A stretch of 64,000 nucleotides of DNA from Salinibacter altiplanensis. Its GTDB lineage: Bacteria; Bacteroidota; Rhodothermia; Rhodothermales; Salinibacteraceae. Below are positions 6,242-18,367 of the stretch, one piece after another (position 1 is the stretch's first letter; each line of letters starts with the position of its first letter). The translations under genes were made by a program, and so were the position numbers. Location of the stretch: contig NZ_NCQY01000020.1 of the NCBI RefSeq assembly GCF_002894645.1, positions 241,474 to 305,473 of the forward strand, in the 5' to 3' direction. The notes below the pieces were generated by a model that saw only the letters and a program-made list of their open reading frames with translations, did not search any database and was not told the DNA's origin.

Positions 6242-7354
6242 CTACACCTGTGAGGCGGTTGCGGACGGGTCGTCGAAGTGGTCGAAGCCCCCGGGCTGAA
6301 GGGGGACATTCTCGCCGTGGGCGCGCTGAATCTTGATCGGGTGTTCGGGGGCGTCGGGCTCCACGATCTCGCCCACCACCGTGTACGTCTGCGGGTCGAG
6401 GGCCTCGAGCTCGTCTTCCGGAATCGTGAACACCAGTTCGTAGTCCTCGCCGCCGAACAGGGCGTAGATCGTCACGTCCTCCCCGAAGTCGGTGGCCGTG
6501 TTGCGGGTCTCCGGGTCAATGGGCAGGGCCGGCTCGTAGAGCTGGGCGCCAAGGTCACCGGCCTCGCAGATGTGGTGCACCTCGGCGGAGAGCCCGTCCG
6601 AAATGTCGATGAGGGCGTGGGGCTGCACCCCGGCGTCGTCCCACTCACGAATTGTCTTGAGCTGCGCCGGCGGGGCCAGGTGCCGACGAATGACGTAGGA
6701 GTACGGGTCGAGGTCCGGCTCGAAGTCCTCTTCCTGCTCCTGGAGGCGTTCTCGGTTCCGCAGAAGCACCTTCAGGCCTGCGTAGGAGGAGCCGATGTCG
6801 CCGGTCACGCAGATCTTGTCGCCCACCTGGGCCCCCGTTCGGTACACCACGGCGTCTTCGTCGGCAGCCCCCACGACGGAGATCGAGAGCGACAGGCCGT
6901 GGGACGCGTTCGTGTCGCCCCCTACGATGTGCATGTCGTAGGCGTCGCAGGCCTGCTTCAGGCCCTCGTAGACCGTGGTAATCATCTCGACGGACACGTT
7001 CTGCGGAATGCCAATCGAGACGGTCGCGTAGCGCGGCGACGCGTTCATCGCCACCACGTCGCTCACGTTGACCGAGAGGGCCTTGAAGCCGAGGTGCTCC
7101 ATCGGCATGAAGGCGCGGTCGAAGTGCACGCCTTCGATGAGCGTGTCCGTCGTCATCACGTGGACACGGTCGTCGTCCGTGCGGTACACGGCCGCGTCGT
7201 CGGCGATGCCCGACACGATGGTGTCGTCGGTCGGCTCGCCGAGCGTGTCGCGCAGGAGAGCAATGAGGCCGAACTCGCCGATCTCAGCGAGGGCCGTCTG
7301 GTCGGACTGCTGCTGGGATTCCATGGGGGCCGGGGCTTGCATTCGAAAAAGCAT
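6242..7354 (-). CDS. thiL: thiamine-monophosphate kinase
   Basis: Encodes 370 residues. ThiL uses ATP to convert thiamine monophosphate to thiamine diphosphate, the last step of TPP synthesis, in the cytoplasm. Family marks are the N-terminal EIGEFGLIALLRD, the metal-binding segment GIADDAAVYR, GGDTNAS near the middle, and the C-terminal LFGGEDYELVFTI. This is the PurM/AIR-synthase-like fold. The length is slightly above the usual 320-350. The start may be the ATG at 7354 or the one at 7324 (MESQQQSDQT); the family alignment begins only after that second Met. It is convergent with the Hpt gene, 8 bases apart. No TPP riboswitch was seen upstream. Confidence 0.93.
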   Translation of the reverse strand: MLFRMQAPAPMESQQQSDQTALAEIGEFGLIALLRDTLGEPTDDTIVSGIADDAAVYRTDDDRVHVMTTDTLIEGVHFDRAFMPMEHLGFKALSVNVSDVVAMNASPRYATVSIGIPQNVSVEMITTVYEGLKQACDAYDMHIVGGDTNASHGLSLSISVVGAADEDAVVYRTGAQVGDKICVTGDIGSSYAGLKVLLRNRERLQEQEEDFEPDLDPYSYVIRRHLAPPAQLKTIREWDDAGVQPHALIDISDGLSAEVHHICEAGDLGAQLYEPALPIDPETRNTATDFGEDVTIYALFGGEDYELVFTIPEDELEALDPQTYTVVGEIVEPDAPEHPIKIQRAHGENVPLQPGGFDHFDDPSATASQV

Positions 7355-7630
7355 TGACTGCCGAAATTCCTATACCCCGGCGGCACAGGCATGTTTGCCC
7401 GTCGAGGCAGCACAGGGGCCCTTTCGTCGGCTTTTTGGTTGACAGAGACGGGAGATGGTTGGCTACGGCAAGGGCATGTCCATGTCTCCGGGCGGTTGCT
7501 TTCCTAAAGCACGTCGGGCGGTGGGACCGCAGACACACTCACGGACCGATCGAGAAACGGAGGTGGGGGCGGAGAGACGGTTGCAACGCGGTGACCCCGG
7601 ATCGGATGTGGCGATCGGTCTAAGCGAAAG
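7355..7630. other. intergenic stretch upstream of thiL, no gene seen
   Basis: Part of a 448-base gap between thiL and anmK. I see no coding signal or RNA in these 276 bases. The promoter of thiL must lie here. The rest of the gap holds the sorting-domain remnant listed next. Confidence 0.4.
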
Positions 7631-7765
7631 ATGCTTCGTCCCTTGCGCCCGGCTGGGCGGCACGCGATGGCGATTGGGGGCAAGGGGCTGCCGAGCGGGG
7701 TGTACGTTGTCCACGTGACGGTCGGGGACGTGACGGCGACGTGTCGGCTCGTCGTGGTATGGTAG
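7631..7765 (+). pseudogene. orphan type IX secretion C-terminal sorting-domain remnant
   Basis: A 44-residue open frame with no body upstream: the frame is closed by a TGA at 7592. Its sequence runs AGRHAMAIGGKGLPSGVYVV, then HVTVGDVTATCRLVVVW and stop. This follows the pattern of type A sorting domains (CTDs) of the type IX secretion system: G-R-H, then the LPSGVYxxxL core, then a T-A-T-x-x-L-V-V-x ending at the stop codon. A complete CTD is about 70-80 residues and is attached to a large exported protein. Here only the last half survives, so I read it as the stump of a deleted cell-surface protein gene. That it is translated at all is doubtful. Confidence 0.6.
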
Positions 7766-7802
7766 CGGGACTCTCTGAACGGTGGGGCGGGGGACCGCCG
7801 CT

Positions 7803-8996
7803 CTATCGACCCGGCACGCTGATCGATCCCAGCACCGTTCGGGCCGAGGCGCCCGTGACCGACGGCAGGTTCGTGGGCACGCCGTTGACGGTCTCGTGGG
7901 CGAGGACGGCAAAGCAGAGGGCCTCCTTCGCGTCCGGGTCCACGCCGTAGTCCGCGGTGGAGCGGACCGGGATCGGGGTGAAGGCCTCCTCCAGCATCCG
8001 CCAGAGCGTGTCGTTGTGCACCCCGCCCCCGCTGACGATGAGTTCGCCGATGGACTGCTCCGGGCGTACGTACTGGGCGTACGCCTGGTAAACGGAGGCG
8101 GCCGTCAGGAGCGTCGCCGTCGCGATCGTGTCCTCGGCACTCAGACCGCGGGACTGGGCGGCGCTCAACAGACGGTCCACGTACTCCGGCCCGAAGTCGT
8201 CACGTCCGGTGGATTTTGGCGGTTCGCGGCGGAAGTAGTCGCCCTCCAGCAGGTCGGCAAGCAGGTCGTGGTCGGGGGTGCCGCTGGCGGCGTGCCGGCC
8301 GTCCGGGTCGTGGGACGCGTCAAAAAGGCGGGCGGCGAGGGCGTCGATCACCATGTTGGCCGGGCCGGTATCGAACGCTCGCACCTCGTCCGGCGCCCCC
8401 CCAGCGGGGAGCACTGTGAGGTTGGCGATGCCGCCGAGGTTGAGCAGCCCACGGGGCGCCTCGGCGTCGGTGAAGGTGACGACGTCGAAGTACGGCACCA
8501 GCGGGGCGCCCTGCCCGCCCAGCGCCAGGTCGGCCGCCCGGAAATTGCCGACGACGGGCACGCCCAGGTGGGTGGCGAGCGTCGACGAGTTGCCCAGCTG
8601 GAGCGTGGCCCGGACGTCCTCGCCGGCACAGTCCGTCGGCTCGGGGCAGTGGCACACGGTCTGCCCGTGGGCCCCCACGAGGTCGAGATCCGCGCGGTCC
8701 GCGTCGCCGTTCGCCAGCACGCGGTCGACGGCCTCCACATACGCTTCCGCGATTCGAGCGTCGAGGCGGGCCACGTCTTGGATCGACGACGAGTCGGGGA
8801 CGGTGGTCTTCCGGGTGAGGGCCCGGAGGGACTCGGAGTAGGGGACGTGGACGAACGCCTCGGCCTCCATCGTCAGGGGTGTGCCGCTGCCGTCGAGCTG
8901 GACGAGTGCGGCGTCGACCCCATCGAGCGAGGTGCCGGACATGAGCCCGACGACCAGTCGGGGAGAGGTGCGATGAAGAGAGAGGAGGGCGTCCAT
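7803..8996 (-). CDS. anmK: anhydro-N-acetylmuramic acid kinase
   Basis: Encodes 397 residues. AnmK phosphorylates and opens 1,6-anhydro-MurNAc released by cell-wall turnover, giving MurNAc-6-phosphate for recycling in the cytoplasm. The ATP-binding N-terminal signature VVGLMSGTSLDGVDAALVQL is clear. Other family marks are GAHGQTVCHCPE, GNFRAADLALGGQGAPLVPY with the catalytic Asp region, NLGGIANLTVLP and DTGPANMVIDAL, then VSGGGVHNDTL near the C-terminus. The start ATG gives a short lead (MDALLSLHRTSP) before the fold. It is 66 bases downstream of the TPR gene in the same direction, so they may share a transcript. Confidence 0.94.
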   Translation of the reverse strand: MDALLSLHRTSPRLVVGLMSGTSLDGVDAALVQLDGSGTPLTMEAEAFVHVPYSESLRALTRKTTVPDSSSIQDVARLDARIAEAYVEAVDRVLANGDADRADLDLVGAHGQTVCHCPEPTDCAGEDVRATLQLGNSSTLATHLGVPVVGNFRAADLALGGQGAPLVPYFDVVTFTDAEAPRGLLNLGGIANLTVLPAGGAPDEVRAFDTGPANMVIDALAARLFDASHDPDGRHAASGTPDHDLLADLLEGDYFRREPPKSTGRDDFGPEYVDRLLSAAQSRGLSAEDTIATATLLTAASVYQAYAQYVRPEQSIGELIVSGGGVHNDTLWRMLEEAFTPIPVRSTADYGVDPDAKEALCFAVLAHETVNGVPTNLPSVTGASARTVLGSISVPGR

Positions 8997-16547: not shown

Positions 16548-18110
16548 TTACCCCTTCGGCTGGAGCGTCGCGACGGGCAGAATCATCTCCTGCATCGAGG
16601 CCCCGCCGTGCTGCAGGGTGTCCCGGTAGAGATTTTCGTAGTGGTGGAAGTTGGTAGGGTACACGAAGTAGTAGTCCTGCTTGGCGAAGAGGTAGGTCGT
16701 GTTCATCCCGTAGCTGGGCAGCCCGAACCGCTCCGGCTCCCGGACGAAGATGGCGTCGTCCTCGTCGCACTTCAGGTTGCTCCCATACTTGTAGCGGAGG
16801 GCCGTGGACGTCTCGCGGTCGCCGATCACCTTGGTCGACTGCAGGCTGCGCACGGCGCCGTGGTCGCTGGTCAAGACGACCGTACAGTCCGTATCGGACA
16901 GTGTCTTCAGCATGTCGAGGAGCCAGGAGTGTTCGAACCAGGTCCGCGTGAGGGCCCGGTAGGCCTCCTCGTCGGGGGCCAGCTCCTGCAAGACGTCCGA
17001 TTCGGAGCGGCTGTGGGCGAGGATGTCGATGAAGTTGACGACGACGGCACTTAGGTCGTGCTGCGTCAGGTTGGCCGCGTCCCGGGCCAGCTGCTGCCCG
17101 TCCTCGCTCGTAATCAGCTTGTCGTAGCGGAGGCTTAGGTCGTCGTGGTGATGCTGGTCAAGCTGGTGGCGGAGCAGGGCGTCCTCGTACTGGTTGCGGC
17201 TGTGCTCGCTCTCTTCGCCCGTCTGCCACGCCTTCGGAAAGCGATCCACGAGGTCGACCGGCAGCATCCCACTGAAGACGGCGTTGCGGGAATAGGGGGT
17301 GGCCGTGGGCAGGATGCTCATGTAAAAGTCCGTGTCGACGGCATAGTGTGGCCGAAGCAGCTCGGAAATCTCAAGCCACTGGTCGTACCGCAGGCAGTCG
17401 ATCACGAAGAAGACGACCGGCTCGTCGCCCGTCTCTGGCAGTACGAACTCGGGCACCACCTCGTGGGAGAGGACCGGGCGGTCTGCCCCGGGGGCCTCGT
17501 CAACGCGTGCCATCCAGTCCGGATAGCGCTCCTCGACGAACCCTCCAAATTCGCGGTCCGCCTCCTCAAACTGGTCCTGGAAGACCTGCCGGGCCCCCTC
17601 GTCGTCGGCCAACTCCAGGTCGTACTCCACGAGGGTTTGGTAGAGGTCAACCCACTCGTGAGAGGAGAGGGGGGTGCGGAGCCGTTGGGAGATTTGGTTG
17701 AACGACTGCAGGTACTGCTGGGAGAGGGCCTCCTGCCGAATCTGCGACTGTTCCAGAAGCCGCTTGCAGGTGAGAAGGATTTGGCTGGGGTTGACGGGTT
17801 TGGTGAGGTAGTCGCTGATTTGGTTGCCGAGGGCGGCCTCCATCAGGTCCTCCTCCTCACTCTTGGTCACGAGCACCACCGGCAGGTTGGGCCGCTCGCC
17901 CTTGATGGCGTCGAGGGCCTCCAGCCCCTCCATGCCCGGCATCTGCTCGTCGAGCAGCACTACGTCGAAGGGGCGCTGTTGCACCAGGTCCACGGCGTCT
18001 GCCCCGTTTGCCACGGTCGAGACCTCGTAGTCCCTCTCCTCCAGAAACATCACGTGGGAGCGAAGCAGGTCGATCTCGTCGTCGACCCAGAGAATCTGTG
18101 GCGGGCTCAT
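16548..18110 (-). CDS. porX: PorX-type response regulator with PglZ phosphatase domain
   Basis: Encodes 520 residues. The receiver domain (1-120) has the acidic pair D10/D11, phosphoacceptor D54 in LLDEQMPG and K104 in LTKP. A helical linker follows (about 130-215), then an alkaline-phosphatase-superfamily PglZ domain. In this domain D238 and T271 (in PTATPYSRN) sit where the zinc ligand and catalytic threonine of PorX lie, and VLTSDHGAV supplies further metal ligands. PorX controls type IX secretion and hydrolyses cyclic oligonucleotides in the Bacteroidota studied. An upstream in-frame Met at 18215 exists but the fold begins at 18110. No porY kinase gene is nearby. Confidence 0.92.
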   Translation of the reverse strand: MSPPQILWVDDEIDLLRSHVMFLEERDYEVSTVANGADAVDLVQQRPFDVVLLDEQMPGMEGLEALDAIKGERPNLPVVLVTKSEEEDLMEAALGNQISDYLTKPVNPSQILLTCKRLLEQSQIRQEALSQQYLQSFNQISQRLRTPLSSHEWVDLYQTLVEYDLELADDEGARQVFQDQFEEADREFGGFVEERYPDWMARVDEAPGADRPVLSHEVVPEFVLPETGDEPVVFFVIDCLRYDQWLEISELLRPHYAVDTDFYMSILPTATPYSRNAVFSGMLPVDLVDRFPKAWQTGEESEHSRNQYEDALLRHQLDQHHHDDLSLRYDKLITSEDGQQLARDAANLTQHDLSAVVVNFIDILAHSRSESDVLQELAPDEEAYRALTRTWFEHSWLLDMLKTLSDTDCTVVLTSDHGAVRSLQSTKVIGDRETSTALRYKYGSNLKCDEDDAIFVREPERFGLPSYGMNTTYLFAKQDYYFVYPTNFHHYENLYRDTLQHGGASMQEMILPVATLQPKG

Positions 18111-18367
18111 AGGGAGCGGGGAAACGTGTCGGGTGCCGACCGAGGGGAACGCGGTTGGGGGCGCCAGGGGCTGAGAGCAGCCGGGTACGGATGAGAATGG
18201 TTGTACCTGGGGCACTGCGTCACGTTCGCGCGGTGTGCCCCCTCCCGCGACGACCGGGTGCCCCCGACGGTACAGACGTTATGAAAGAGCCGCTGTCTGT
18301 GTCTACGGGGCGCGAGGTCAATGGTCCGTTCGCCCATGTCAGTTTGTACAGGCGCTCGCCCGTCGCC

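Follow-up and report, generated by a model that had tools for sequence, protein, structure and literature searches.

The sequence at 7645-7765 (+ strand) of the window, between thiL and anmK of Salinibacter altiplanensis, is quite probably an ectopic copy, now decaying, of the 3' end of a gene for a cargo protein of type IX secretion (T9SS), a piece of genetic debris within a lineage-specific insertion. All positions refer to the 64,000-nucleotide stretch of DNA that was analyzed, here called the window (G000:C15:241474-305473; G000 is the S. altiplanensis genome, 3.59 Mb in 30 contigs, and other G numbers designate the genomes compared with it). The source would be a gene for an S8 peptidase that lies on contig 29 in this genome, or one very close to it. 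An insertion of roughly 330 bp would have entered the thiL-anmK gap after the split from the closest sequenced congeners, presumably when a short duplicated piece was inserted illegitimately. Partial pseudogenes and ectopic gene fragments occur in bacterial intergenic DNA. The fragment resembles them in being truncated and lineage-specific, perhaps also in being under weaker constraint, and in having a fuller relative in the genome; here the frame is still open. The fragment is genuine, but of an ordinary kind, and by itself matters little. It does serve as a caution, in that a sorting-domain-like end near porX is not the mark of a lost local gene.

The open frame and its relationship to an S8 peptidase gene

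The list of open frames contains a 44-codon frame at 7631-7765 (+ strand), with an ATG start and adjoining anmK, as the initial annotation had described. That annotation called it an orphan sorting domain with the usual C-terminal end and no exported body, and proposed a check with sorting-domain profiles. The NCBIfam model of the type A sorting domain of T9SS, TIGR04183, scored 19 bits, short of its curated cut-off of 23 bits, with residues 19-42 of the frame aligned to profile positions 48-71 of 72. In Pfam the frame reached no threshold; the match was to a different family, MalQ_N (17.1 bits vs 24.1). A profile built from sorting domains of the genus (29 domains out of 30 loci returned, mostly the best-scoring, with L102 dropped for an internal stop) matched residues 8-43 at its positions 43-78 of 79, with E 1.2e-6. 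The best other stop-to-stop frame among the 1149 in the window had E 4.2 with this profile. The profile check was thus positive with the genus model and fell short with TIGR04183.

Comparison of DNA sequences identified the relative. Bases 7645-7758 were identical at 101 of 114 positions (89%, E 4.4e-36) to the 3' end of a contig 29 gene for an S8 peptidase (G000:C29:444816-446828, in L011), a 671-residue frame. In the product of this gene, unlike in the fragment, an S8 domain (PF00082) and a whole sorting domain both score over the cut-offs. Identity was 77% over 39 residues at the amino-acid level; the next protein match to the frame in the same genome was 46% identical, and no other place came near. 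Homology to the S8 gene does not extend to the first codons of the 44-codon frame; the fragment proper comprises the last 39 codons and the stop, corresponding to the second half of the sorting domain. The same stop codon ends the fragment and the S8 gene, directly after the sorting-domain end in each, and similarity past it was not above chance. Short pieces of the fragment also matched five genomes of other families (G031, G033, G035, G047 and G056) at 75-100% identity, which we read as probably other sorting domains sharing codons.

We considered whether a spurious frame in GC-rich DNA could resemble a sorting domain by chance. The frame is short and below the TIGR04183 cut-off, and two neighboring frames match nothing, as such a reading would have it. 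This reading has a negligible probability: it is refuted by the DNA match to the end of the S8 gene, and the frame is the best of the window's frames by about six orders of magnitude.

A whole sorting domain was also rejected, and with it part of the initial description. Homology to sorting domains is clear from both the DNA match and the genus profile, but less than half of a domain is present (36 of 79 genus-profile positions; TIGR04183 itself has 72). A complete domain is a seven-stranded sandwich of about 100 residues (the fold is that described in passages of PMC12618676 and PMC11285876). The first half, with its YPNP and YDxLGR parts, is missing, and none was found upstream with Pfam, NCBIfam or translated comparison. 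The fragment shares with TIGR04183 / PF18962 domains the C-terminal half, the GLPSGVY core, the immediate stop and DNA homology to a complete member; it is unlike them in being a half domain with a sub-cut-off score, three altered conserved residues, no cargo and no signal peptide.

The altered residues show that the C-terminal end is not the usual one. In the YFxR motif, the R found in all 29 sampled genus domains is H in the fragment and the F found in 28 of the 29 is V; the final residue, R in 24 of the 29, is W. The S8 copy retains all three. Among the 39 codons compared between the fragment and the S8 gene, 13 differ, nine with an amino-acid change and four without. The Nei-Gojobori (NG86) estimates were dN 0.124 and dS 0.222, giving a dN/dS of about 0.56; over 39 codons both dS and dN/dS are imprecise. 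For comparison, dN/dS was about 0.07 for thiL and 0.2 for anmK.

No full-length relative of the S8 gene was found in the 12 congeners, where the best matches had 37-39% identity over about 260 residues; source and copy would therefore both be peculiar to this lineage. Seven loci with relatives of the S8 C-terminus were found in species genomes (the S. altiplanensis genome perhaps excluded), at 28-41% identity and none of them close. A search for a mobile origin of the S8 gene gave 221 matching plasmid records, all below 60% identity and none covering 80% of the gene, and viral contigs contained no exact match of a 22-base piece. We also noted that the S8 frame is preceded, in frame, by a signal-peptide-like start and then a stop (L011, upstream of 10829, - strand, G000:C29); the stop may have arisen by a recent nonsense mutation or be an error in the sequence. 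A second sorting-domain protein (G000:C21:445-1050, L003), a 351-amino-acid frame near a contig end, is 32% identical to residues 467-670 of the S8 protein.

Extra DNA in the thiL-anmK gap

The gap that holds the fragment is flanked by an AIRS-domain gene at 6242-7354 (- strand; Pfam PF00586 and PF02769, AIRS and AIRS_C), which we take to be thiL, encoding thiamine-monophosphate kinase, and by anmK at 7803-8996 (- strand; anhydro-N-acetylmuramic acid kinase; PF03702, 337 bits). It is 448 bp long in S. altiplanensis, as compared to about 115 bp (G004), 118 bp (G003) and 118 bp (G010) in the three closest congeners. In the five other comparable congeners it is about 181 bp (G011), 102 bp (G009), 277 bp (G007), 190 bp (G001) and 190 bp (G012). 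This comparison used one genome per species and covers eight of the 12 congeners; in G002, G005, G006 and G008, thiL and anmK are on different contigs. All eight gaps are shorter and without such a gene end. Relative to the closest congeners, the extra DNA lies at approximately 7440-7785, with borders uncertain by tens of bases.

DNA searches agreed with these lengths. None of the 12 congeners matched the fragment part at E 0.001 (at most 11 candidates were scored per genome). With the gap DNA as query, matches in G003, G004, G010 and G011 were confined to the initial 68 bases, close to thiL, and eight congeners gave nothing at E 0.001. The extra DNA is thus specific to the S. altiplanensis lineage among the genomes compared.

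The initial annotation had proposed that a surface protein gene was lost at this place, and that this gap be compared in relatives for an intact gene. The eight comparable gaps (102-277 bp) contain neither an intact gene nor such an end, and the fragment closely copies the end of the contig 29 gene; loss of a local gene was accordingly set aside as the first choice. Because the congener gaps are short and without a match to the gap DNA beyond the thiL-proximal bases, an insertion would be the simplest history, rather than the loss of a resident gene. An insertion after the split from the closest congeners would also fit the dS of 0.22 between the fragment and the S8 gene, which is below the values between S. 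altiplanensis and G003, G004 and G010 (0.30-0.36 for thiL and 0.44-0.53 for anmK).

Under a different history, a modified form of the proposal in the initial annotation, a whole cargo gene of this sorting-domain subtype would have entered the thiL-anmK gap in this lineage, and a later deletion in place would have spared its 3' end and some 5' DNA. The homology runs up to the stop codon in common with the S8 gene, as this history predicts, and an end of homology near a stop codon would be unneeded for a random piece. In addition, about 205 bp of the insertion, upstream of the fragment, gave no convincing match and could be other remains, so that a larger lost gene is conceivable. Both points count against debris, but a gain and a large loss would be needed instead of one event, and no gene is present in any of the eight comparable gaps. 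Two neighboring + frames of 87 and 89 codons had no match to a Pfam or NCBIfam family, and the six frames of 7440-7650 had no convincing match to the loci compared, the S8 gene included. We therefore consider gain followed by deletion unlikely, and prefer the insertion of a gene-end fragment.

The remainder of the extra DNA (7440-7644) had no convincing match in the 60 genomes (its own and 59 relatives), in plasmids or phages, or among the other loci compared; the best values for those loci, E 0.12 with blastn and E 0.028 with tblastn, were taken as noise. Repeats of the kind left by mobile elements were short and mostly imperfect, with no convincing target-site duplication. A search of 7100-7900 with Rfam gave one sub-threshold match, outside the gap (7105-7239, E 0.39). 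One terminator-like site was found at 7477-7494 (mean of 0.3 in shuffled sequences).

In the part of the gap next to thiL, at 7390-7437 and upstream of that gene, the motif TTCGTCGGCTTTTTG and a preceding TGTTT motif are kept in the nine aligned gaps of the genus. The TTCGTCGGCTTTTTG motif differs by one base in G009, is unique in the window, and has no Rfam family match; the region is possibly a promoter or leader element.

Coding potential of the fragment

By inspection, the frame has no hydrophobic N-terminal stretch and no signal peptide, and no cargo domain was over the cut-offs of Pfam or NCBIfam, in agreement with the initial annotation that there is no exported body. A search for sigma-70-type promoter-like sites found none in 7200-7950. 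With signal peptide, cargo and the first half of the domain all absent, the fragment would make no secreted product. It is most likely non-functional, judging from the sequence, because these three parts are lacking and the conserved arginine is gone. One point does not fit debris well: the frame is still open to the stop codon even though 13 of its 39 compared codons have changed.

The open frame and its ATG start could also be accounted for if the frame were translated into a small peptide with a function, such as a decoy or a regulator of sorting-signal recognition. The part it keeps is the part that bears the signal, and this part is not meaningless, because green fluorescent protein (GFP) was exported in Porphyromonas gingivalis with only the last 22 residues of the HBP35 sorting domain, as reported in a passage of PMC4804311. 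We regard a functional peptide as very unlikely. T9SS effectors bear a Sec signal peptide together with the C-terminal domain (according to the relevant section of PMC12618676), whereas this peptide would be cytoplasmic; the conserved F, R and final R are changed; the promoter search was negative; and none of the 12 congeners has the sequence. The C-terminal motif of sorting domains is relevant for function, but no side chain proved indispensable by itself in earlier work with point mutations (both from a section of PMC11285876); therefore the residue losses in the fragment are suggestive of decay and are not proof of it.

Type IX components in S. altiplanensis and its relatives

The presence of porX at about 9 kb had been taken as a sign of present or past type IX secretion in this lineage, and our results support that view. 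The gene is at 16548-18110 (- strand; ATG read from the translation), 8.8 kb from the frame, and encodes a T9SS response regulator with a PglZ domain (686 bits with NF052313, cut-off 300, over the searched 16548-18122; PF00072 and PF08665). SprA/Sov was over the cut-off in S. altiplanensis, in 12 of the 13 genomes of the genus (the exception, G008, is 83% complete), and in 59 of 60 relatives. Sorting domains were found in 13 of 13 genus genomes, with 18 TIGR04183 matches at E <= 0.01 in S. altiplanensis. In the parts of two publications available to us, Salinibacter ruber is listed as positive for sorting-domain proteins (PMC5053529) and as having homologues of secretion genes, citing older work (PMC9606717).

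The survey of PorK, PorM and Sov that the initial annotation had suggested found Sov (SprA) and did not detect PorK (GldK) or PorM (GldM) in this genome. Judged from PorX, SprA, GldK, GldM and sorting domains, a complete classical type IX machine was thus not found in S. altiplanensis. GldM was not found there with TIGR03517, with the GldM-like protein of G009, or with a profile made from three congeners. TIGR03517 matched in six of the 13 genus genomes (G005-G009 and G011), all under the cut-off, and the G009 query matched in the same six. The three-congener profile matched in 16 of the 27 family genomes, in three of three of family f2, and in none of 30 from other families, a zero that may reflect the limit of the profile's reach. 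One weak match in G003 (E 0.006 over 76 positions) was not counted. Five further genomes of the family in which GldM was missing (G002, G020, G023, G024 and G026) have a completeness of 62-90%.

GldK had the same distribution as GldM. The gldK-like and gldM-like genes of G009 (L126:9322-11163 and 7519-8577) owe their names to NCBIfam matches below the cut-offs (GldK 229.8 bits vs 350; GldM 57.6 vs 180) and to the closeness of the two genes. GldL and GldN of G009 are presumably as named, from their position. GldK orthologues with 54-100% identity to that of G009 were present in the same six genomes, near gldM, and these six congeners thus carry gldK and gldM close together. In G002, a partial GldK match interrupted by stops lies at the end of a contig. 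G000 and G004 had a GldK match of 41% identity only, in the enzyme-like part. In S. altiplanensis this match covers query residues 273-532, the N-terminal part of the matched protein being non-matching, and no orthologue was found. G001, G003, G010 and G012 had no GldK match at E 1e-10.

As a result of these searches, six genomes (G000, G001, G003, G004, G010 and G012), each at least 98% complete, have SprA and sorting domains with GldK and GldM undetected. SprA is under purifying selection where it was compared (G000, G003 and G004): dN was 0.041 and dS 0.382 between G003 and G004, and 0.082 and 0.497 between G003 and the first part of SprA in G000. The SprA gene of S. altiplanensis (L125:603-8458, G000:C15:85602-93457) is split over two frames near the C-terminus. 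The split may be a recent break or an assembly error, because both parts are still conserved, with a dN/dS of about 0.13-0.17 relative to G003 or G004.

The stray gene end could be seen as a by-product of a remodeled type IX system in this clade, which would lack the GldK ring and GldM motor parts that six other congeners carry; SprA would then export cargo either in the absence of the known motor or with a substitute for it, and the system would be eroding in S. altiplanensis (broken SprA frame, stop upstream of the S8 frame, orphan gene end). We offer this wider reading tentatively and regard it as rather unlikely. SprA under purifying selection without detectable GldK or GldM in several nearly complete genomes would make motorless type IX export directly testable. 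The GldK and GldM survey matters more than the fragment and merits a look of its own.

Literature searches, with partial coverage, listed no paper whose title concerned the type IX genes of Salinibacter as a set, and the absence of GldK and GldM has perhaps been reported already. McBride and Zhu (2013) may have described the type IX genes of S. ruber. Neither type IX nor Por secretion is mentioned in the portion of PMC6767994 available to us.

The number of sorting-domain matches differed between the two kinds of genomes. There were 13-22 matches in the six genomes without detected GldK and GldM, as compared to 22-52 in four genomes with GldM (Mann-Whitney p 0.018), or 3.8-5.8 and 6.7-10.4 per Mb, respectively, with genome size and relatedness as confounders of this comparison. 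The four GldM-bearing genomes are at least 93% complete; the comparison left out G008 and G011, each 83% complete (15 and 18 matches, respectively), and the 62% complete G002 (11 matches). Among the six genomes without detected GldM, the PorX result covers that of S. altiplanensis only. By the identity of their ThiL and AnmK to those of S. altiplanensis, the six fall into two groups. Because this ordering puts GldM-bearing congeners between the groups, it suggests that GldK and GldM were lost twice.
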